From Ianthella basta (Eukaryota > Porifera > Demospongiae > Verongiida > Ianthellidae), in assembly GCA_964019415.1 (NCBI GenBank), contig OZ025888.1, positions 2,999,819 through 3,063,818 of the forward strand: a stretch of DNA of 64,000 nucleotides, read 5' to 3'. Positions within the stretch are counted from its first letter, which is position 1; every line of letters begins with the position of its first letter. The notes under the pieces are model-generated. The model was not told where the DNA came from, searched no databases, and saw nothing but the letters and a program-made list of their open reading frames with translations. Shown in pieces: positions 9,457 through 37,000 of the stretch. The translations under genes were made by a program, and so were the position numbers.

Positions 9457-11232
9457 TCAGATCAGATCAAACGTACAAAATTGGCTGAGTCGTTGCTCAA
9501 AGATCCCAATCGTGGTTTCTGGTCTGAAGTGCATCGACACTTTGGTAACAGCAAAGCTACTCCATCTCCAGTTGTTGATAGTGTTACTGGGTCTGACAAT
9601 ATTGCCAATCTGTTTGCCAATAGTTTTAAACAACTGTACAACTCCACAGACTCTTCCGCCGCTGAGGAACTGCTGGATAATCTTAATTCAGCTCTAACTT
9701 CAGCAGAGATTGAGCACATTTCTATATCACCTGATACAATCCATGAGGCCATTGGGAAGCTTAGGCATGGTAAGATTGGTGGTGACACATTGGCTTCAGA
9801 CCATATTCTGAACGCACCTGCCTCATTACATCAGTTTCTGGCTCGTCTGTTTACAACACTACTGAGACATGGCTTCATGCCAACTGCACTGCGAGATGCC
9901 ACCATTCAGCCTATTCCAAAGGGCTCTAAAGATCCTTCCCACTCTGCAAACTATCGTGGAATAGCCCTTGCTTCCTCCCTAAGCAAAGTCCTAGAGTGGT
10001 CCATTCTGATTACCTGGAATGAATTCTTTATCACGAGTGATTTACAATTTGGCTTCAAATCTGGCTTTTCTACTACCCTTTGTACTGGTGTCATGAAATC
10101 TGTTATCAATCGCTACTTGAATAAAGGCTCTAAAGTGTATGCTTGCTTGATTGATGCCTCAAAAGCCTTTGACACAGTTGACCACGGCATCCTGTTTTCG
10201 AAATTGCTTGAAAGAAGAATGCCCAAGCCTATTGTACGTCTGTTATTGCAGTGGTACAAGTCTCAGAAATTGTGTGTTCGATGGTTGGGTAAATCCTCTG
10301 ACCACTTTGAGGTCTCCAATGGGGTTCGCCAAGGCGGTGTCCTTAGCCCAATATTGTTCACAATTTATCTTGATGGCCTGCTAGATTCACTTCGTACTAG
10401 TGGTCGTGGCTGTTACTGGGAGGATCACTTCTCCGGGGCTTTTTGCTATGCCGATGATCTAACCATTCTTGCTCCATCCCCAGATGCCCTTAGAAAGATG
10501 CTTGCCCTATGTGAACAATATGCTCAGGCTCATGGGATTCAATTCAATGCTGATAAGACTCAACTTATATGTTTTAGACGTACTGCAGGTTCTGATCATA
10601 CCCGCTTCTCACTCTGTGGCCACTGCCTGCCTATGGTTGATTCAGTCGTTCACCTTGGGAATACTTTGCAGTATGACTTGTCTGATAAGCTGGATATTCA
10701 TTTAAAATCAATGGCATTTATCCGCCAGGCTAACTCTGTCCTGTTTCGATTCAAGGGGTGTAATCCGGAGACAAAGATGAAACTATTCAATGCATACTGT
10801 CTTTCACTGTATGGGTGCGCATTGTGGAGGCTCGATGCCCCAGACATCCGATCTCTTCATGTGTCGTTTAACAATGTTATCAGACGAATTTGGAATCTTC
10901 CACACAATTGCCATACGTCTATTGCCCATGCTGTTGGATTTACTAAAAGCATTTACAACATCATTTATTCCAGATTTATCAGACTACTTTCCACTGCATT
11001 ATCTCACTCATCTAGTTTCATTCGTTCTGTTTTTCATGAAAGTTCTTTAGTATGTAATTCAGGTTTTATAGGGTACAACTGTATGTTTGGTCCTTCTCAT
11101 TGTAAATCTTATTCCACCGATCATGTTGCTGTGGGTCATCTAATTAGAGAGATCCGAGATACTCACTCTGTAATTCCCCATTTTGCTCAGTCAGAATTAG
11201 ACTTTATTGTATCCTCAGCCTCCACCATGTAA
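9457..11232 (+). CDS. Non-LTR retrotransposon ORF2, reverse transcriptase, 5'-truncated
   Basis: A single open frame runs from just after a TAA at 9,454 to a TAA at 11,230-11,232. There is no ATG at its left edge, so it is the 3' part of a longer ORF2 lacking the AP endonuclease. Counting codons from 9,481, palm motif A reads DASKAFDTVDHG (D225), the template-grip region reads GVRQGGVLSPILF (about 281-293), and the catalytic box reads FCYADDLTIL (Y323 A324 D325 D326). A thumb and a C-terminal region with RRIWNLPHNCHT follow. The order fits the Jockey/CR1/L2 group of LINEs. The frame has no stop over nearly 600 codons, so this copy is young next to other elements in the window. It may still provide reverse transcriptase only in trans, if expressed at all. 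Confidence 0.85.
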   Translation, partial: SDQIKRTKLAESLLKDPNRGFWSEVHRHFGNSKATPSPVVDSVTGSDNIANLFANSFKQLYNSTDSSAAEELLDNLNSALTSAEIEHISISPDTIHEAIGKLRHGKIGGDTLASDHILNAPASLHQFLARLFTTLLRHGFMPTALRDATIQPIPKGSKDPSHSANYRGIALASSLSKVLEWSILITWNEFFITSDLQFGFKSGFSTTLCTGVMKSVINRYLNKGSKVYACLIDASKAFDTVDHGILFSKLLERRMPKPIVRLLLQWYKSQKLCVRWLGKSSDHFEVSNGVRQGGVLSPILFTIYLDGLLDSLRTSGRGCYWEDHFSGAFCYADDLTILAPSPDALRKMLALCEQYAQAHGIQFNADKTQLICFRRTAGSDHTRFSLCGHCLPMVDSVVHLGNTLQYDLSDKLDIHLKSMAFIRQANSVLFRFKGCNPETKMKLFNAYCLSLYGCALWRLDAPDIRSLHVSFNNVIRRIWNLPHNCHTSIAHAVGFTKSIYNIIYSRFIRLLSTALSHSSSFIRSVFHESSLVCNSGFIGYNCMFGPSHCKSYSTDHVAVGHLIREIRDTHSVIPHFAQSELDFIVSSASTM

Positions 11233-26174: not shown

Positions 26175-26515
26175 ACCCACCACCACACAGTGCAAGTTGC
26201 AATCTGCGCATGCAGTATATGCGCCAGTGCTTCTATGAACAAGGCCACCAGTGCAAGTTGCAGAGACTAACAACCCCGAGTGCAAGTAGAGTGCGCTAGT
26301 TGATAAAAGGAAAAACACCATCCGCGCAAGTTGCTGAAGGTCAGGGGGACCGGGCACCAGCATGGATTGGCATGCATTGGGGGGCCACTATGAATGCAAG
26401 TACAGTGTTGGTGCTAGTCGAATGGCACCAGTTAGAGCAGGATGCAGCAACAGCTTTGCAACTTGCACTTGGGCACTATGTGAACCGTGTTCTGCCCAAG
26501 TGCAAGTTGCATACC
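26175..26515. repeat. AGTGCAAGTTGC repeat region
   Basis: The core AGTGCAAGTTGC or a near variant recurs at about 26,188, 26,250, 26,327 and 26,497, with CCACCA before it and GCGCTAGTTGATAAAAGG-type spacers. The same unit builds the large palindrome at 32,511-33,262. Confidence 0.6.
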
Positions 26516-26536: not shown

Positions 26537-28424
26537 TTTGCAACTTTTGGAGTCATTCACTAGAGTTTGGGTGGGTAATGTCTGTGAGAAAAAACATTTG
26601 GAAAATTTGGAGTCATGCACTTGAGATAGGTATGGTGACACTCCCCCCCTTGCTAACACGGTTGGAGTAATTCAATGAAGTTTGGGTTGTTAAGACTCCT
26701 CCTTTGCTTATGGGTTGTGGACATTTGAAGTCATGCACTGGAGTTTGAGTGGGTAAGACTCCCCCCTCACTCATGACTATGGGAAAAGACATTTGCAACA
26801 TTTGGAGTCATGCGCTGGAGTTTGGTTGGGTAAGACTCCCCCTTCGCTCATGGCTATGGGAAAAGACGTTTCCAGCATTTGGAGTCGTGCACTGGAATTT
26901 TTTATGGGTAAGACACCTGCCTTGCTAATGGGAATGAGAAAACGAGATTGAAACATTTGGAGTCATGCGATGGAGTTTGGTTGTGTAAGACTCCCCTCTT
27001 GCTAATGGGAATGAGAAAAGACGTTTGCCACATTTGGAGTCATGCAATAGAGTTTGGTTGGGTAAGACTCCTCTCTTGCTAATGGGAATGAGAAAAGGCG
27101 TTTGCAACATTTAGAGTCATGCACTGGAGATTGGGTGAGTAAAACTCCCCCATTGCTAATGAGAATGAGAAAAGACGTTTGCAACATTTGGAGTCATGCA
27201 ATAGAGTTTGGTTGGGTAAGACTCCTCTCTTGCTAATGGGAATGAGAAAAGATGATTGCAACATTTGGAGTCATGCACTGGAGTTTGGGTGGGTAAGGAT
27301 CCTGCCTTGCTAGTGCGAATGAGAAAAGACGTTTTCAAGATCTGGAGTCAAGCACTGGAGTTTGGTTGGTAAGACTCCCCCATTGCTAATGGGAATGCGA
27401 ATAGACGTTTGCGACATTTGGAGTCATGCACTGGAGTTTGGATAGGTAAGACTCTTCCCTTGCTAATGGGAATGAGAAAAGACGTTTGCAACATTTGGAG
27501 TCATGCACTGGAGTTTTTGGGGTAAGACTCCTGCCTGCATATGGGAATGAGAAAAGTTGTTTATAATATTTGGAGTCATGCAATGGAGTTTGGTTGTGTA
27601 AGACTCCCCCCTTGTTAATGAGAATGAGCAAAGACGTTTGCAACACTTGGAGTCATGCACTGGAGTTTGGTTGGGTAAGACTCCCCCCTTGCAAATGGAA
27701 ATGAGGAAAGATGTTGGCAACATTTGGAATCAAGCACTGGAGTTTGCTTGGGTAAGTCTCCCTCTTGCTAATGGGAATGAGAAAAGACATTTGCAACATT
27801 TGGAGTCATGCACTAGAACTTAGATAGGTAAGATTCTTCCCCTTCTAATGGGAATGAGAAAAGGTGTTTGCAACATTTGGAGTCAAGCACTGGAGTTTAG
27901 TTGGGTAAGACTCCACCCTTGCTAATGGGTATGAGAATAGACGTTTGCAACATTTAAAGTCATGTACTGGAGTTTGGTTGAGTAAGACTCCCCCCTTGAT
28001 AATGGGAATGGGAAAAGACTTTGGCAACATTTGGAATCAAGCACTGGAGTTAGGTTGGGTAAGACTCTCCCACTGCTAATACGAATGAGAATAGACGTTT
28101 GCAATATTTGGATTCATGCACTGTTCTTTGGATAGGTAAGACTTTTCCCCTGCTAATGGGAATGAGAAAAGACGTTTACAATATATTGAGTCAAGCACTG
28201 GAGATTGGTTGGGTAAGACTTTCCCCTTGCTAATGGGAATGAGAAAGGACGTTTGCAACATTTGGAGCCAGGTACTGAAATTTGGTTGGGTAAGACTTCC
28301 CCCTTGCTAATGGGAATGGGAAAATACTTTGGCAACATTTGAAATCAAGCACTGGAGTTTGGTTGGGTAAGACTCCTCCTTTGCTAATGAGAATGAGAAA
28401 AGACGTTTGCAACATTTGGAGTCC
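26537..28424 (+). repeat. 77-bp satellite array A, diverged monomers
   Basis: About 24 tandem monomers of 77 bp. Consensus words in order are GACGTTTGCAACATTTGGAG, TCATGCACTGGAGTTTGGTT, GGGTAAGACTCCCCCTTGCT and AATGGGAATGAGAAAA. Neighbouring monomers differ at many positions and no higher-order period is obvious. The array stops abruptly inside a monomer at about 28,424, where the helicase-transposase pseudogene begins. Minus-strand frames of about 60 codons repeated every 77 bases are by-products. Confidence 0.9.
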
Positions 28425-28440: not shown

Positions 28441-29459
28441 TTAGGCAGATTTCAATCTTGCTTCATAATCAGTCCTATTATAAGTCAGGTCTCCACTGCG
28501 AATGGCAGCCATGTATTGATATGCACATGACTTGTCACTTTTGTACAATGCAATCAGCAAATATCTAAGTGATGCAGTATTTGTCATTTTGGAGTCCTTG
28601 TTCTTTCTTTCCACTGCATTTGTGTCCTTAGGACAATTTCTCCAATCATCATCATTTAGTGGGGAGAATTCCTTACATAGCATTTGAAGGTGATACTGCC
28701 TAGTCCACCATTCTACCCATGCCTTTGCCTTTCCTCAGTGACTGTTGTTAAATGGATGCAATCCATGGAGGTGAAGTGACTCCACAGGCTTTTCACCACA
28801 CAATACTTGAAATTGAAGGAGGACTGTTGACTTTGATTGGCCACAAGGTATGCGTGAGGCTACTGTATTGAATGCTCTCTTCTCCTCAGCTGTCCTGCAT
28901 ACCTTGTCTGCAACCCTCTGATAGGATCTGGCCCAGTGTACTTGGCACCCTCTTAATAGACCATTTGCCATAGTGGCACCTACTGCTTTTCGCAGTCCAC
29001 TTGCTTCAGCATTGCTCCAATCTATCACTATTCCCCTCAATGTCTTTCCTACTTCAAAACTGCTGCAGTCCGCTCTAGTTATGTCAAATATCTTGCTAAA
29101 ACCAATACCATACCCATCAGCATCATCTTTTGATAGGAGGCAACACCCCACTATGATCCATCGCATTGCTTCTTCATCGAAAGCTGTAACATTGAACAGG
29201 TATTTGTACTCAGCGTGCTCTAAGTATGTATGTATGTCACATTCTATGAAGGTAGCTTTAGATAGTTGTTGTGACATAAAAGGTGACTGTAATAAAGCGA
29301 ACTTTATCCCTTTGGAAATCCCGGCTTCCCTCATATATGGCCGACCCAGCTGAGCATACTCCTTTGCTGTGTGTGGACTTCCGGAGTGGCTGTTATCATT
29401 AGCATCAATACTGTCAGCTACCGTCTCAAACTCAAAGATTGTAATACTTGGTTCTCTGT
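28441..29459 (-). pseudogene. MULE-type DDE transposase domain
   Basis: The frame reads KYREPSITIFEFETVADSID, then MREAGISKGIKFALLQSPFM. Next comes FIECDIHTYL, placing the first catalytic Asp, then YLFNVTAFDEEAMRWIIVG. The second Asp and its helix read IVIDWSNAEASGLRKAVG, followed by GCQVHWARSYQRVADKVC, the CxxH signature of Mutator-like (MULE) transposases. Near the end, after an in-frame TGA at 28,735-28,737, come WVEWWTRQY and TNAVERKNKDSK, the position of the catalytic Glu. The order D-D-(CxxH)-E and the W.xWW/TNxxE region fit the MULE superfamily. The stop at 28,441 lies only 17 bases from the satellite. Confidence 0.7.
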
Positions 29460-30620
29460 ACTTCTTGCCTTTCTCATCTCCAGTCTCACTCGGCCTACAT
29501 GTGCTGCTGCCAAATCCGCAGAGGCTGGAACAAACCCAAGACCTGACCCTTGCTGGACTTGAGTTGCTGTGAGTGTTTCATCCATTAAAGCAGCTGACTG
29601 TATTTTATCTTTAACATAACTGCTTATTTGTGATGGACCTGGCATTGGGTGACTGTGCAAGGTGTCTTCACACCTTTTGCCTTCATAGTTGTTCCATAGA
29701 ATGCCACCAATCCAACGTCGATTGTCAGTCCAGGGGTTGGGTGGATATAGATAGGTTAATTCTATGGGACAATCGCTGATGGACAGTAGCTCTTGCTTTG
29801 GGTGCTTAGGGCATGGTTTCCTTACCTTCAATGTAACTGTAGTCACAGCCATCTGCAGAACACCTTTTAATTCCTTTACATGGACATGTTCTGTAGAATA
29901 ACGCCTCTTCCTTGCCACCAATAGAAAATTTTACCATGCGGTCTTTACTAAAACTGCCTTTTCCTAGTTGGACATCATCCCACAAGAAGTGAGGATGGCT
30001 GGGAGAAAATTGAGGCAGTTTGCTAATGTCATTGCAGTACATTATAGCTTGTTGCGACCCTGGATAGTGGTACTGTTCCTTTTCTATTATTGGCACCCAG
30101 TTTTCAACGTTGCTCATAAGTTGCCGTACTGTCTGTAAAGTGTGTGAACCTTTACCCACGCGCTCCTTTCCTACTGTTGAACCCTGAGTCTCTGTTGAGT
30201 GTAAGGACAGGCTCTTTCTTTTCACTACTGCTATAGGTTTACTGAGATTGTGCTGTGGCAGGAGGACTTCAGCCTGACTATCAGTGAGTAGTGAGTGTCC
30301 AGATTCATTGTTATGCATTGTAGCACAAACAGCATGCTGCTGTTTACAAACAGCCTGAACTGCCACTTTCCTATCAATGAGCCCAAGGCCATGACACTGT
30401 CTAATAAATGATTGCCACCATTCCAAAGAATGATCCCGTCCAGCCCCAAAGCTAGGCTCTCTTTTGTTCTCTTCAGTCAACCATGAACTGTTGGAGCCTC
30501 TGAGGAATTCAGACAGCTTGCACTCCCCCTTCAGACCCAAGGCTCGTATGGCTTGTACTAGAAGTTTGGCTTCTCTGGTGCATGAAGTATAGTCCATGTC
30601 ATTCTCACCATCACAAACTC
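29460..30620 (-). pseudogene. Linker and Cys/His cluster before the transposase
   Basis: After the RecQ zinc segment the frame continues TSCTREAKLLVQAIRALG, a winged-helix-like region with FIRQCHGLGLIDRK, then a variable linker. From about 29,930 it reads CPCKGIKRCSADGCDYSY. A frameshift follows at about 29,815, then KPCPKHPKQELLSISDCPIE, RRWIGG and LHSHPMPGP. Cys and His pairs ending in HxHP resemble the WRKY-GCM1/FLYWCH-type zinc fingers that stand before the catalytic domain in Mutator-like transposases. A following helix reads LTATQVQQGSGLGFVPASAD. The sequence GAAGGTAAGG at the frameshift also fits a splice donor, so a short intron cannot be excluded there. Confidence 0.6.
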
Positions 30621-30631
30621 CACAACAGGAT

Positions 30632-31810
30632 TTGCTGCATCTGTTAGTTCCTCGTTGTAGTATTCAAGCAGGGCTTTACGTAAACATCTTCCTGCAAGCT
30701 TGCAATACACTAGCTTCCAGCTCATGTCATACTCTGCCAGTATAGTGTCCCTGAGGAGTCTGTTCTGTAAATGATCACGTAGCCAGCCAAGCACATTTTG
30801 AACATCAGACTCACTGTAAAGTATTGTCGCTGTAGCTGCCTGCCCATTCCGCCCTGCTCTACCCAACTCCTGCACCCAGATATTGATGTTAGGGGGTACA
30901 CCAATCCTGATCGCATGCCTCACATTTCCACTATTTATGCCCATTCCAAATGCTTTAGTCGCTACCATTACCTGCACTTCGCCATTTGCCCGTTGCCTGT
31001 ACGATGCCAGTTTGGATTTAGCATCCAATTCTCCATGATAGTGAGCAGATGTAATGCCCACTTTATCCAGCGCCTGGGTGATGGGAACAATATCTGCTAT
31101 AAAATCAGTGTAAATTATTGCAGTGTCCTTCTTGATTATTTTGCATATACTGTTGACAAAACCGATGTAGTTGCCACGATTCTCCTTTGACACATGGCCC
31201 TTGTCTGTAACTTCCTGTACATCCAGGATGATATTAGGACGGTTCATGGTATCTTTCAACACAGTGGGGTCAGACAGGTACCCTATAAGCTTTTCAGCCA
31301 TACTAGGGGTTGCTGTGGCAGTAAGGAACATGACCGGTGTGCTGGGGAAATGGTTCTTTATTGTTTCCAAGTCCCTATAGTTAGATTGAAAAGATTGCCA
31401 CTCGCATATTAGGTGTGCTTCATCAACAGCGATTAGTGTTTTATTTAATGCTACATCTTCAACTGCTTTCAGATTGATGTCTTTGAATAGCCACTCTGGT
31501 GTAATAAAGATTATGCGGTGTGGATCCTTGGTGATAAACACAGATCTCTCCAGTGACTTGTCTACTTGGACACTTCCCAGATATGTACACTGTATACCTT
31601 GATCTGTCAGTAGAGCATGCTGGTCTTGCATAAGGCTGATTGTGGGACACACAACAACAGCTTTAGTATGTGTGTACACTGGTGGGAATTGATAGCACAG
31701 GCTTTTCCACTACCAGTTGGCTAACTAATCAGGGAATCTTTGCCATTTAGTGCTGTACTGATGGCTAATCATTGATAATCGCAAAATCGTGTCAACCCAA
31801 AAGTGTCTGC
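30632..31810 (-). pseudogene. RecQ-type DEAH helicase domain
   Basis: The helicase starts with FGLTRFCDYQ, a TGA, and LAISTALNGKDSLIS. It then has the Walker A motif PTGSGK (31,703-31,720), where one base is missing and the frame shifts before SLCYQFPPVYTH. Motif Ia reads VVVCPTISLMQDQ, motif II IAVDEAHLICEW (31,413-31,430 region), and motif III TATATPS. Motif V reads VMVATKAFGMGINSGNVRHA and motif VI QELGRAGRNGQ (about 30,850-30,872). This order and the DEAH box are diagnostic of the RecQ family of 3'-5' DNA helicases. A long open stretch of about 370 codons survives after Walker A. The C-terminal Cys region reads CCGVCDG after a frameshift at about 30,625, matching the start of the RecQ zinc-binding segment. 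Confidence 0.85.
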
Positions 31811-31963
31811 TGGCTCTGCCACCTGGCACTTGCCCTCAAGGTTGTCATGGGAAATGCTGTCTAAAAAGTCTGAAACAGTGGAGGACTGGCTGTTAGAATC
31901 TGGACTATCAGTGTTCATTGCAGTGCAAGTGTTAGTGTTCTCCATGATCACGTGGTTTTGTCA

Positions 31964-32068
31964 TTGTGGGTGACGGTGAACCAGTGTACCGCAATCTGAG
32001 CACAAGGCTTTATCGCACGACTTACAGTGTAATTTGGGGTTTTCAGCACCACAAATATTGCAGATACT
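31964..32068 (-). pseudogene. B-box-type zinc finger
   Basis: Directly after LKGG the frame reads CNICGAENPKLHCKSCDKA, LCSDCG, then LVHRHP. The spacing C-x2-C-x7-C-x2-C-x4-C-x2-C-x4-H-x-H is that of a B-box zinc finger, which binds two zinc ions and usually mediates protein contacts. It ends at a TGA, after which the same frame continues (MENTNTCTAMNTDSPDSNSQ) as a Ser/Asp/Thr-rich linker up to the helicase. Confidence 0.7.
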
Positions 32069-32281
32069 CCCACCCTTTAAGCTGCAACATAGGTTAATGT
32101 TGCATTCATTGTACTGCCAGCAATGTTCACTATCTTGAAGTAACTTGTTTCTATGCATTAGTCGTTGTGCTGAACTACTTAATCCAGTAGATGCTGCAAT
32201 ATGTTCTTTCAGTTCAGCAACTGTTGTCTCACCTGGTACTCAAAAGCTCAGAGTCTTTGTGTTGTCATGTACAAACAAGTT
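32069..32281 (-). pseudogene. Ubiquitin-like domain ending LKGG
   Basis: These 71 codons align along their whole length with ubiquitin: NLFVHDNTKTLSF, a TGA, VPGETTVAELKEHI, GLSSSAQRLMHRNKLLQD, WQYN and finally INLCCSLKGG. The TTVAELKxxI helix, the QRL, the KxLxD and the terminal LKGG (ubiquitin has LRGG) are all in place. Ubiquitin has 76 residues. There is no Met at the left edge; the true start may lie in an upstream exon, where a frame beginning MDKVSSVCCVCTEKEKK (about 32,450) is a weak candidate. The double Gly at the junction with the next domain suggests the UBL could once have been cut off by a deubiquitinase-type protease, which is inference. Confidence 0.7.
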
Positions 32282-32493
32282 TGACCAAGTAGTGGATAAT
32301 CTGTATAAGAAGATGAATTTTATCATTGCATATTTTGTATTTTATAATTGACATTGAAAATTTGTACCTGTAATCAGGACGATGTATAGTAGTAGCTGAT
32401 TTTCTTCTCTTTCTCTGTACACACGCAGCACACTGAAGACACTTTGTCCATGGTGTCGTTCTTTTCCTGCAAGTTGGATTACAGAACCTTCAT

Positions 32494-32513
32494 CAATATA
32501 TATATATATATAC
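32494..32513. repeat. (TA)n microsatellite
   Basis: Short TA run between the pseudogene upstream region and the palindrome. Confidence 0.8.
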
Positions 32514-33262
32514 CACCACCACACAGTGCAAGTTACAATATCGCAGCCACCACCACCTGTGCCAGTAGAGTATCTGTGCTAGTTGGTCATAGAAAAAGAC
32601 CACCACCAGTGCAAGTTACAGTAGCCACCACCACATGTGCCAGTAGAGTATCTGCGCTAGTTAGTCATAGAAAAAGACCACCAGTGCAAGTTACAGTGGC
32701 ACTGGGCCAGCACACGCACCATTCGCACCACCACATGTGCCAGAAAGTAAATGCGCTCAATGGCTGAAGAAAAAGACCACCAGCGCAAGTTACAGCCGGT
32801 CAGAACCTGCACCGTCACCATTGGAGTGCACGCTGCAGCAAGCAAATGTAACTTGCCTAAGGGCATGCCATTGAATTTCTTCCCACGCACCCTCAATTCA
32901 ATGGCATGCCCTTAGGCAAGCTTACATTTGCTTGCTGCAGCGTGCACTCCAATGGTGACGGTGCAGGTTCTGACCGGCTGTAACTTGCGCTGGTGGTCTT
33001 TTTCTTCAGCCATTGAGCGCATTTACTTTCTGGCACATGTGGTGGTGCGAATGGTGCGTGTGCTGGCCCAGTGCCACTGTAACTTGCACTGGTGGTCTTT
33101 TTCTATGACTAACTAGCGCAGATACTCTACTGGCACATGTGGTGGTGGCTACTGTAACTTGCACTGGTGGTGGTCTTTTTCTATGACCAACTAGCACAGA
33201 TACTCTACTGGCACAGGTGGTGGTGGCTGCGATATTGTAACTTGCACTGTGTGGTGGTGGTA
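32511..33262. repeat. Near-perfect 752-bp palindrome
   Basis: The left arm (32,511-32,877, 367 bases) and right arm (32,895-33,262, 368 bases) are reverse complements with one clear one-base indel near 32,849/32,921. The spacer is 17 bases. Both arms encode the same peptides on opposite strands. Each arm is itself built from tandem units of the AGTGCAAGTTAC motif with CCACCACC and GAAAAAGACCACC spacers. The arms are far more alike than the tandem units within them, so the palindrome formed recently or is kept alike by gene conversion. Confidence 0.9.
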
Positions 33263-33600
33263 GTGGTGTTTTTTCTAGAGCAATGGCGCATATACTGAAT
33301 GCATGCACTGTAACTTGCACTGTGTGGTGGTGGTGGTGGCAGTCATTTTCATCTAGGAATGCATGTGGTGGCCATAATATTGTAACTTGCACTGTGTGGT
33401 GGTGGTAGTATGTGGTAGCAGCGCCTGATGTGGTGGTCTATTTTCTTGCAGCTCTAGCACATAATATGCTATAACGTGCTCATTGCAACTTTCACTGTGG
33501 TGGTGGTGATGGCGGTGGTATTTATCTATGTGGTGGTATAGTAGCTGTATATTGTGGCTGGATAGTTGTGAGCAAGTGTACATGTGGGAGCTGCTCTGCT
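33263..33600 (-). repeat. Diverged units of the AGTGCAAGTTAC / TGG repeat
   Basis: Further copies of GTAACTTGCACTGTGTGG occur at about 33,308 and 33,380, and a weaker one (GCAACTTTCACTGTGG) near 33,484, with (TGG)n tracts after each. The spacing is about 70-105 bases. Confidence 0.65.
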
Positions 33601-33661
33601 CCAGCATAATGGCAAATGCCTACAAATTGGTGTCAAAATGTGATTGTTCAAAACGCCGCCT

Positions 33662-34045
33662 CCATTTTGTGACTAATTAAGCAATCCTGCTAATGACATG
33701 TGCAAATGGGCCATCTAACTATGTCCACTTAGTATCATGACTTAGTGGGGCTGGGTTGGTGGGATGTGCAATGAACCTCACTTTTCTCAGCCATTTTGCG
33801 ACTAATTAAGAAATCCTGCTAATGACATGAACAGTTAGATTATCTGGCTAGGTCCACCAAGTGTCAGGACTGAGCGGGCTTGGCTGGTTGAATAAATCAT
33901 ACACCACGCATATGTCGGCCATTTTGAGACTAATTAAGAAATCCCACTAATAACATAGGAAGGTGGACCACTTGGACGTCTCCACCACGTTTCATGTCTC
34001 AACGAGCCCAGTTGCATTATTATACAAAATACCACTATGCATCAA
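33662..34045 (+). repeat. ~129-bp tandem repeat, three units
   Basis: CCATTTTG-N-GACTAATTAAG starts at 33,662, 33,791 and 33,919, with similar sequence following in each unit. No coding potential is seen. Confidence 0.75.
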
Positions 34046-34319
34046 TATAAATGCACCATACATTAAGTGTTCTCCTATGCGCATTTATATTAGCATTTTG
34101 CGACCTCCTTGTAGAAGAACGAAGACCTAATTAAAAATTCTGTCTCATTTAAAAGTCTTAAAATCTCCCATACTTCATCACCACACCTAGCACATGTTCA
34201 TGAGGGCCGTCAAACTCCCAGGGAATTATTTATTTATTTATATTATATTATATAATTTACTTTAGATTAGTGGTGTATATTGTAACTTGCACTGTATATA
34301 TATAAAGAAGGAGTGAGCA
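34046..34319. other. No gene recognised
   Basis: AT-rich sequence with one more GTAACTTGCACTGT core at about 34,280. Confidence 0.4.
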
Positions 34320-34750
34320 GAACGGTTGTACGCGAACTCCTCCCGCGAGCAACGGCGCATGGACACCAAACTTTCCCAGATTACGGACGCCACACCCAGT
34401 CTCGATCTAAGGGGGGTGACGTGCGCGAAGAAGCCCCTGCCGAGGAGTGCGCAGCGAAAAACCTCCAAACGACCGTCCCCCATCTTGGATTTACAGAGAA
34501 AATATACGGTTTTCCGCGCACGTTCCTATGCTGCCAATACAAAAGAAGAACCCCAACTGTTGTTCGCGAACTCCTCCCGCAAACGTCGACGAAACATGCC
34601 CAAACATTCCCAGCTGTCGCACGCTGTACCTCACATCAATATAAGGTGGTAGACGTGCTAACATAAGCTGCTACCAAGGAGTGCACAGCGATAACCCAGG
34701 ATGAACCGACCATCGGCCATCTTGGATCTTGGAAGAAAGTATGCCGTATC
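34320..34750 (+). repeat. Diverged tandem duplication, ~236-bp period
   Basis: 34,320-34,520 and about 34,556-34,750 share CGCGAACTCCTCCCGC, AGGAGTGC-CAGCGA and CCATCTTGGAT in the same order. Overlapping open frames in two phases (34,313-34,666 and 34,326-34,652) have no recognisable domain and follow the repeat, so I do not call them genes. Confidence 0.6.
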
Positions 34751-35260
34751 CTAGGTGTTCACGCAGGTTCGAGGATTACACCCAAGCTAGCACGATGCCG
34801 AAGCTGAGAAAAAGGAAAGGGGGGTTGTCTCACACAGAAACCATCAGCTTCTTACAACTATCCGTTGTTTGTCTACAGTGATCTTCCATGTAAATTGCAT
34901 GCACACATGGTAGGTCAGTCACACTGACATCACCAGGCCAGCCTGGACTATCCTTTGCCAGAGCATGCATGACCAGCCAGTGCATTACTAGCTGGGGCCT
35001 GAGTAGCAATGGCATTACCAGCCTGTGTCCGACCAGCTGGCATATGCCGAGCACGCGGAGAGACCTGCTCGAAGGGCAGGTCTGTCCGCTAGTATATATA
35101 TATATATATATAGCATTATTGAACTTTCTGATCATTGAATAGGTGTGCAGGTGTTGTGTAATAATTGATGCTACATTAATTTAATTGCATGCAACTGTGT
35201 TTTGATTTTGACTAAATAATATTAAATCCTCCAGAGGATTTATAGAATAACTGTGCATAA
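34751..35260. other. No gene recognised
   Basis: Contains GACCAGCCAGTGCATTAC-type short repeats around 34,970-35,040 and a (TA)n run at about 35,091-35,112. Confidence 0.4.
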
Positions 35261-35660
35261 CTAGCTACATGCATACCTATTGCTTTGTGGTCTCCTTTTG
35301 ATCTGCTGTCTTCTGTGCTGTCTGTTGAACATTGCAATGTTAGTGTCCCTCATCACACAGGATCCATCATGAATGTAGCTGTGCTGGAAATAATAGCTCT
35401 GTCGCTTTGGTATAGCTCCACTGGTACTCAGCAAGAGCCTGATGCAGTTGATGGAAACGCCTGTAATATGCTTTATGGTGTGAAGCATTTGACTGACTGA
35501 TATGCACGGAGTAGCCCAACCAGTAAGGCCAGAACTGCAAAAGAAGCGACAATCATCAGCACTTTCCAACGATACATCATTCGCGGTCTGAGATTCGAAT
35601 GCTGCCGGCGCTAAATCGAAGTCAGGTGCACTAATCCATGGCCAGTACATCAAAATTCGT
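35261..35660 (-). other. Possible exon region, includes a membrane-segment frame
   Basis: On the minus strand an ATG at about 35,572 opens MYRWKVLMIVASFAVLALLV and continues GLLRAYQSV to a stop: a short cytoplasmic piece and one hydrophobic helix, like a type II signal anchor. Another minus frame covering 35,261-35,653 (130 codons) overlaps it. Positions 35,467 to about 35,282 could be a second exon (AG acceptor ATATTACAG, donor GTATGC). I could not join these pieces in frame with consensus borders, so no gene is called. Confidence 0.25.
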
Positions 35661-35918
35661 GTATTCTACATTAAAATGACTAATCACTCCTTCAGTTGTT
35701 ATTGGCTAGAAGAGCAAACGCTAAATACAAGTAGCACGACGTAGCGAACCACAGCATCCATTTTGTAGCCTTAACAGCTGATTCCGCTATTGCATAACAT
35801 ACTCAGGTCATGCGCATGATTATGCATTAGCCAGGCTTGCTAGACCGTCCAGTAAGCACCCGGTAGGCATGGAAGGAGGCCTACCAGGTGCTTACCAGAC
35901 TACATAATTATGCACATA

Positions 35919-36667
35919 CCGTATTTGTCCGAATAGAGGCCCAGGCCTCTATTTCTTTCCCGGGAATTTCGACCCGGCCTCTATTCGGGCCCGGTGTCAC
36001 AGTTTATTCCATCCCCCCGGGTAAAATAAACTATGATACTTTATCCCCCGACTTTGAATTTCTGAGTATTTCTTAACTCGTTTTGGTGTGTTTCACCTCG
36101 AGGGGTTGTTCTGACATCCATCAACCCTGCTTTGACAAGCAGTAGCTAAGATTCAGACCGTTTCATGCTCCTCACATGCTCAGGCTGTAGCGTCGATGTA
36201 CCTGCACATCGATGTTCACCAGTTTGCGAAACTGCACGCCGTACTGCTACTCAAGCACTCCTGCTCGTTGTAGTAGTGCCCTCTTGACATTCTTCGAGAA
36301 CCCAGAGAACTACACAAGCATCCCAGCCATGGTAGAAGGACAAAAACCTCACCGCGGCCGTCAGTTAACAAGATTGATGTGGTCTTCTGCAAGGACTGCA
36401 AAGAAAGTGCAGGGTTCGCAGATATCGTCACCTAACAGTCTCCTCTGGTAGTGGTAAGTCTCATCCTGCAGTAAGGTGCATTTTACTAGCTTCCATCAGC
36501 ATTTCTGTGTCGTTTAACCAACCTTCGGTTACTCGGGGGGATACTTTATATGGGGGGTAAAATAAACTGTGACACCGGCCTCTATTAATGTACTGACCTC
36601 CTGACTCCCGGCCACTATTTGAACCCCGGCCTCTATTTGAGCCCGGCCTCTATACGGACAAATACGG
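35919..36667. mobile_element. TIR element with CCGTATTTG ends, TA target
   Basis: CCGTATTTGTCCGAATAGAG from 35,919 faces CTCTATACGGACAAATACGG ending at 36,667, flanked by TA on both sides (35,917-35,918 and 36,668-36,669). A second internal inverted pair, GTGTCACAGTTTATT and AATAAACTGTGACAC, sits further in. CGGCCTCTATT words recur in both termini. No transposase is readable, so this is a non-autonomous element of 749 bp. Confidence 0.8.
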
Positions 36668-37000
36668 TAATTTATATGCATAGAGTTACTTCCGGTTGCC
36701 ATTTTGATATATAGTTGCAATAGGTCAAAATGGCGGGCGGACACAAAGGTGCTAGCTATATATACCGCTGATCTGGTAAGACGTGAGGCTCGCAAGGTAA
36801 AATACATATATCTGGTGCTCACAACGTAAAAGCTTATCACGTATAGTACAAGATACAGACAACGTAAAATGGTATCACGTATAATACAGGATATATGTAC
36901 TCATTATTTGCAAACATATGAGCAACCCTAACACAGTGTTCGTTATCGCTTCACCCGAGTGAACAGTGAAAATGTTCCTGGGTAGGCTACATGGGGCAAA
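36668..37000. other. No gene recognised
   Basis: Contains one ATGGCGGGCGG motif at about 36,729, similar to the YY1-type site at 37,013. Confidence 0.4.

Follow-up and report, generated by a model that had tools for sequence, protein, structure and literature searches.

A broken DNA transposon copy in the sponge Ianthella basta probably encoding ubiquitin-like, B-box, RecQ helicase and MULE-like transposase parts in one protein

Introduction

Can a DNA transposon carry a RecQ helicase in the same protein chain as its transposase? The question is raised by a 64,000-nt stretch of contig OZ025888.1 of Ianthella basta (the window, to which all plain coordinates refer), the minus strand of which holds an interrupted coding region with a ubiquitin-like domain (UBL), a B-box zinc finger, RecQ helicase motifs, a Cys/His cluster and a DDE-like core. 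A preliminary description had taken this region for a dead DNA transposon copy with its own RecQ helicase and a transposase of the Mutator-like elements (MULEs), perhaps of rolling-type mobility. We consider it probable that the region belonged to a cut-and-paste DNA transposon family encoding a UBL-B-box-RecQ-transposase protein and is now a dead copy, truncated at its 3' end. Copies and places in the same genome are designated by C- and L-numbers.

Results

Seven pieces of the window were compared with Pfam, and matches above the curated cut-off of the respective model were accepted. These were ubiquitin (2.6e-7), B-box (3.1e-6), DEAD (7.5e-13), Helicase_C (7.2e-17) and RQC (9.5e-8; 32.3 bits at a cut-off of 23, and 29.8 bits in the sister copy C5). 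The match to RecQ_Zn_bind was sub-threshold. The sister copy C11 was assigned to the RecQ family by TIGR00614 (1.3e-89, 301.2 bits, cut-off 219.8), and C5, in which the first RecQ part is missing in that frame, reached 200.7 bits with this model. The best PDB match of C5 was WRN (1.1e-44). The LKGG end of the UBL is retained in C11, C5, the window, C5e, C69a and C3a and is gone in C20; C18a does not reach that far. Pfam matches of the window pieces and alignment with the sister copies bear out the order and strand described previously (UBL, B-box, RecQ, Cys/His cluster and DDE-like core on the minus strand), and stops and frame changes interrupt the window copy, as had also been claimed.

In C11, one open frame of 766 residues comprises the UBL, the B-box, RecQ, part of RQC and the transposase start. 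A 338-residue frame with the remaining transposase and the tail follows in phase after one stop; an internal deletion of ~890 bp took the remaining RQC and the Cys/His cluster. In C5, the UBL contains a stop and RecQ a change of frame, after which a 693-residue open frame runs from RecQ through RQC and the whole Cys/His cluster into the N-terminal part of the transposase, with the transposase core in phase downstream after one stop. In the window itself, RQC and the beginning of the Cys/His cluster share an open frame of 285 residues (29806-30663). The junction of RecQ and Cys/His cluster recurs in the window, C5 and C2, and C6 just reaches it. As the same order and junction are found within shared termini on other contigs, the fusion is not an assembly join, the possibility named beforehand as fatal to the proposal.

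The copy searches covered the same genome (209 Mb, 96 contigs), all match counts being lower bounds. The RecQ piece gave at least 75 matches; those with at least 57% identity fall in six places (window, C11, C5, C20, C6, and C2), and the others are more distant RecQ-like stretches. At least 30 matches of the transposase piece lie in nine places, three with RecQ (window, C11, and C5) and six without. The 5' end gave at least 87 matches, sorted as 13 separate 5' terminal regions, the rest being copies of a nested insert or of a 38-bp unit. The UBL/B-box piece gave at least 10 matches, all of those listed lying in eight copies of this transposon family. C11 and C5 are about 98-99% identical across long shared parts. 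No useful relatives were obtained for the RecQ piece in genome-contig and viral-contig collections, for the Cys/His piece in the genome-contig collection, or for the DDE piece in a plasmid collection.

Sister copies end in GGT... inverted repeats that carry 38-bp subterminal tandem units; the 5' and 3' ends of C5c align over about 150 bp, best in the inner 38-bp units. Among the seven copies with both termini, perfect 9-bp target duplications flank C5b, C5c, and C5e, and one with 8/9 matching bases flanks C5d; the duplications are without TTAA. No 3' terminus was seen in C4a, C18a, and C3a within the stretch examined. One RecQ-less junction is common to five copies (C4a, C17a, C5b, C5c, and C5d), and C69a, C5e, and C18a break elsewhere. 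Between its termini, C5e retains the B-box, most of the UBL and the initial RecQ residues. C5c and C5d differ by 2 mismatches in 4,020 positions and have unrelated flanks, which indicates recent movement. Their transposase matches are split and contain stops, so that both were probably moved in trans. Termini, target duplications and deletion derivatives point to cut-and-paste transposition by the DDE half. Rolling-type mobility is not supported, inverted repeats, 9-bp duplications and several different deletion derivatives being traces of the cut-and-paste mode. A dead DNA transposon copy whose own RecQ helicase was fused to UBL, B-box and transposase is supported by the related copies, the shared termini and the target duplications on derivatives.

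Selection on the coding parts was assessed in two ways. Pairwise, the nonsynonymous fraction was compared with neutral simulations using the observed transition share; these counts reflect both selection while the lineage was active and decay following insertion, and the pairs have copies in common. The fraction was lower than neutral (p<0.05) in three of four pairs for RQC (the fourth with p=0.050), six of eight for the DDE core, four of six for the Cys/His part, four of seven for the tail, and one of seven for UBL and B-box. The ratio of nonsynonymous to synonymous substitution rates (dN/dS) was 0.31-0.55 in the UBL-RecQ part and 0.16-0.87 in the transposase part, a count that ignores transition bias and is less strict than the simulations. 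Furthermore, two-state differences were split into those common to at least two copies and singletons (one-sided Fisher test, p values uncorrected for six tests), shared differences serving as a proxy for inner branches. Nonsynonymous/synonymous counts were 7/12 shared vs 122/44 singleton for the RecQ core (p=0.0018), 16/25 vs 62/24 for the DDE core (p=0.0004), and 8/13 vs 65/32 for RQC (p=0.014). On the simplest reading, constraint acted on the helicase as well as on the transposase while the family multiplied. For UBL and B-box, the counts are too small to tell.

The MULE label given to the transposase comes from the motif order D-D-CxxH-E and from no transposase profile. The motif residues identified by eye in C11 are D74, D145 (71 residues on), C170, W174, and E282. 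In CxxH, the His is an Asn in C11 and the Cys a Tyr in C5, and both are present in the window and in C4a. Target duplications of Mutator-like elements measure about 8-11 bp, usually 9 bp. The order D, D, CxxH-W, TNxxE would fit MULEs, and the 9-bp duplications would fit MULEs as well as AcademH. CxxH and W of MULEs are common to hAT (PMC5225508). The MULE profile PF10551 matched none of the pieces at E≤10, and 13 other stretches of the same genome do match it; comparison of the transposase with PDB and PHROGs gave no transposase match. For a MULE comparison profile, four PF10551-positive sequences of the same genome were combined, and 5000 shuffles were made per copy. The scores of three element copies were reached by 81, 134, and 294 of 5000 shuffles, the best shuffle exceeding all three, and those of DUF6589 controls by 658, 658, and 1554 of 5000. 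This may be taken as a hint of MULE affinity only. Pairwise comparison with other MULE copies was uninformative. We call the transposase MULE-like, the MULE assignment being provisional; the Cys/His cluster is probably its DNA-binding domain.

The interval of 28441..32281 originally given for the unit proved too short, as the 5' terminus lies at ~36927. Two insertions (~35911-36683 and 32509-35099, from alignment with sister copies) split the leader, and the 3' part of the element is missing in the window, being cut off at 28422 at the start of a 77-bp minisatellite. The parts of the window copy are as follows.

36770..36927, minus strand: 5' terminal repeat, aligned with sister-copy 5' termini (outer end ~36927, inner limit approximate); sister copies have it in inverted form at their 3' end
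36821-36893: 38-bp subterminal tandem repeats inside the 5' terminal repeat, from tandem-repeat analysis
35911..36683, unstranded: nested insertion in the leader with 25-nt inverted ends, an alignment gap in C11 and C5 at the same point
35100..35910, minus strand: 5' leader, 94-95% identical to the C11 and C5 leaders over most of its length
32509..35099, unstranded: nested insertion in a TA-microsatellite, with 341-nt perfectly matching inverted arms; not in C11 and C5 at the same point
32367..32459, minus strand: predicted exon 1, a basic, Cys-containing N-terminus; inspection of the alignment by eye puts it in the UBL frame across the predicted intron
32301..32366, minus strand: predicted intron (66 nt in the window, GT...AG), from sequence alignment
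32069..32280, minus strand: ubiquitin-like domain ending LKGG (Pfam match on 31961-32239)
31970..32068, minus strand: B-box zinc finger (Pfam zf-B_box)
30600..31800, limits approximate, minus strand: RecQ helicase core (DEAD and Helicase_C), broken in the window, from Pfam and sister copies
30337..30582, minus strand: RQC domain (Pfam)
29646..29934, minus strand: Cys/His cluster ending HSHP, from sequence; an open frame links its beginning to RQC
28444..29439, minus strand: putative DDE-type transposase core with D, D, CxxH-W, and TNxxE motifs, from sequence and motif positions in C11
26721..28423, unstranded: 77-bp minisatellite in place of the 3' part; C11 and C5 have the Tudor-like tail and 3' terminus there

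A start codon for exon 1 is present in C5, C11, and C69a and is not found in the window. By eye, the predicted intron begins with GT in four and with GC in one of five aligned copies holding the stretch, and ends with AG in all five.

The minisatellite was rejected as part of the element, since C11 and C5 have none at that place. Similarly, two sets of CAGTGCAAGTTACA repeats (26177-26332 and 32511-33430) were rejected as element ends, as C11 and C5 lack them there; the right-hand set furthermore sits inside an insertion. The CAGTGCAAGTTACA-rich insertion contains a palindrome (32511-33262, 341-nt perfect arms), and related repeats occur near C6, C20, and C11. Arrays of the 77-bp minisatellite flank the element on both sides (26721-28423 and 38530-63860), and in the right-hand array 38530-63860, interspersed 365-bp repeats give a larger repeating order. 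Next to the C4 copy, the 38-bp subterminal unit has expanded into tandem arrays (G000:C4:8463354-8475571). The leader of C11 holds an insert (L021:4318-5100) with inverted ends of ~100 bp (97%) and a fragment of another RecQ gene (DEAD 0.00078, below the cut-off), which by eye is L020-like. At 9457-11232 on the plus strand of the window, an open frame of 591 residues resembles by eye a non-LTR-type reverse transcriptase.

Among the more distant RecQ matches are multicopy elements with nearly identical copies (L013/L014, 100% over 2,996 bp; L017/L018, 99.7% over 2,570 bp). L013, L014, L017, L018, L020, L012, and L019 are RecQ elements whose opposite strand carries a DUF6589 gene. They are of a different kind and perhaps Academ-related, which is a suspicion only. 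L013 and L014 share the end sequence TAGTCTGGCTCGC at their start and differ in their flanks. A further RecQ gene piece (L031:4453-5157; DEAD 2.9e-23), about 35% identical to the RecQ of the element, looks like host RECQ5.

Discussion

Several observations weigh against a transposon family with a UBL-B-box-RecQ-transposase protein. The same-genome search brought up related copies with shared termini but no intact five-domain copy; each of the copies examined is broken. Of the profiles expected to match in order, UBQ, B-box, and RecQ did so, whereas MULE and FLYWCH/GCM did not: the transposase and Cys/His pieces matched no Pfam transposase, zinc-finger, or FLYWCH/GCM model even at E≤10. In a profile-profile comparison with thin profiles, the DUF6589 set was no worse than the MULE set against the core, neither being significant; as this control did not favour MULE, our confidence in the transposon reading is slightly lowered. 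The tail of the sister copies resembles Tudor/Agenet below cut-offs only, and the exon/intron structure is predicted from alignment alone. Target duplications are absent from C11, C69a, and C17a, in which both termini are present (in C11, 3/9 flanking bases match; C5 is without a 5' terminus), and all four duplication-bearing copies are internal-deletion derivatives without the RecQ core. Recently moved derivatives without RecQ imply that RecQ is not needed in cis. In the pairwise tests, none of six pairs differed from neutral in the RecQ core (p 0.13-0.64). The shared-difference result for RQC fails if corrected for six tests, and those for UBL and B-box (2/3 shared vs 26/18 singleton, p=0.36), the Cys/His part (2/3 vs 14/16, p=0.59), and the tail (5/6 vs 21/9, p=0.14) are not significant.

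The full form of the element would consist of a GGT... terminal inverted repeat, a leader, a short exon 1, one long exon 2, and a 3' inverted repeat. Exon 2 would encode the UBL, B-box, RecQ, RQC, Cys/His cluster, DDE-like core, and Tudor-like tail in an estimated ~1,400 residues, and insertion of the full element would create 9-bp target duplications. The transposase half would bind the termini, cut, and insert, and the RecQ half, in the same complex, would most likely assist strand invasion and copying during repair of the donor gap from the sister copy; a long element would in this way be restored and not lost. Such a role is inferred from the activities of WRN/BLM-type helicases, and interruption of this gap repair would lead to different internal deletions. 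With its correctly placed LKGG, the UBL could be cleaved off by a deubiquitinase of the host, or it could tether the protein to ubiquitin-binding repair factors; insertion could be directed to marked chromatin by the Tudor-like tail. More tentatively, and with considerable doubt, the lineage, having a transposase too divergent for profiles, may move with its own repair helicase and UBL/B-box, partly independent of host RecQ in excision repair or replication-coupled insertion.

Capture of a host UBL-B-box-RecQ gene or gene fragment as a passenger, the helicase being irrelevant to movement, appears unlikely, though it is the strongest competitor. MULEs tend to pick up host gene fragments (PMC6446971), a junction without RecQ is common to five copies, two of which have moved recently, and the pairwise RecQ tests look neutral. 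However, the frame from RecQ to transposase is retained in C5 and C11, the shared RecQ differences are rich in synonymous changes (7/12 vs 122/44, p=0.0018), and the RecQ-less copies resemble deletions of the long form with differing break points (the shared-junction group, C18a, C69a, and C5e).

We give still less credit to an Academ/AcademH-type element, that is, a helicase-encoding DDE transposon with target duplications of 9-10 bp. Duplications of 9 or 10 bp are described for AcademH, the enzyme of which is a helicase (PMC10045372), and RecQ is reported in Academ (PMC3627910). Against this, the genome has a separate multicopy class with RecQ and DUF6589 on opposite strands, whose RecQ is 28-44% identical to that of the element, and the transposase pieces lack a DUF6589 match in Pfam, although the thin-profile comparison does not separate DUF6589 from MULE. 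That DUF6589 is the Academ transposase is a suspicion only. Two neighbouring elements, a single-spot assembly join, or a single domesticated gene are highly improbable: RecQ and transposase usually belong to separate families, but on other contigs, too, the parts are joined in this order and at this junction between shared termini.

RecQ has entered DNA transposons more than once, namely in KolobokH, in Academ, and beside a MULE-like core here, as well as beside DUF6589 in the same genome. This repetition hints at a common need, perhaps repair of the excision gap. With both activities in one chain and short helicase-less derivatives available, the need for the helicase is directly testable. 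The UBL with its retained LKGG raises the question of whether transposons use the host ubiquitin system to reach repair sites.

Compared to cellular RecQ helicases (WRN, RecQ1, and BLM), the element has DEAD, Helicase_C, RQC, and a sub-threshold RecQ_Zn_bind in common, but its Pfam matches include no HRDC or exonuclease domain, and the helicase is fused to UBL/B-box and a transposase. Helitrons are transposons carrying a helicase; in contrast to them, the element has inverted repeats and target duplications, and no Rep-type domain is among its Pfam matches. With Mutator-like elements, it shares terminal inverted repeats, 9-bp duplications, an N-terminal Cys/His cluster, and internal-deletion derivatives, as well as a putative D-D-CxxH-E order read by eye. 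It differs in having no PF10551 match and in uniting RecQ, UBL, B-box, and Tudor-like parts in a single protein. Neither a MULE survey (PMC6446971) nor an arthropod MULE survey (PMC13359780) uses the word 'helicase' in its main text, and among the literature matches listed, seen as titles and abstract openings with Repbase not covered, no description of a RecQ-MULE fusion with UBL/B-box was found.

The assumption that RecQ helicases and transposases are separate requires qualification, as RecQ occurs in KolobokH (PMC9587614) and Academ (PMC3627910). KolobokH of fungi and Kolobok-1_CCri of a rhodophyte are DDD/E transposons encoding a RecQ helicase, located downstream of the transposase in KolobokH and on the complementary strand in Kolobok-1_CCri, and Kolobok duplications are the 4-bp TTAA (PMC9587614). 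Unlike in KolobokH, the RecQ part of the element lies upstream of the transposase in the same frame, and the duplications are 9 bp and not TTAA. Academ/AcademH elements are alike in encoding a helicase, with RecQ reported, and in the 9-10 bp duplications of AcademH, found here on derivatives without the RecQ core. The element has no DUF6589 match in Pfam, unlike other RecQ elements of the same genome. RecQ in DNA transposons is thus already known, and the domain order, the fusion, the UBL/B-box, and the MULE-like core look new.

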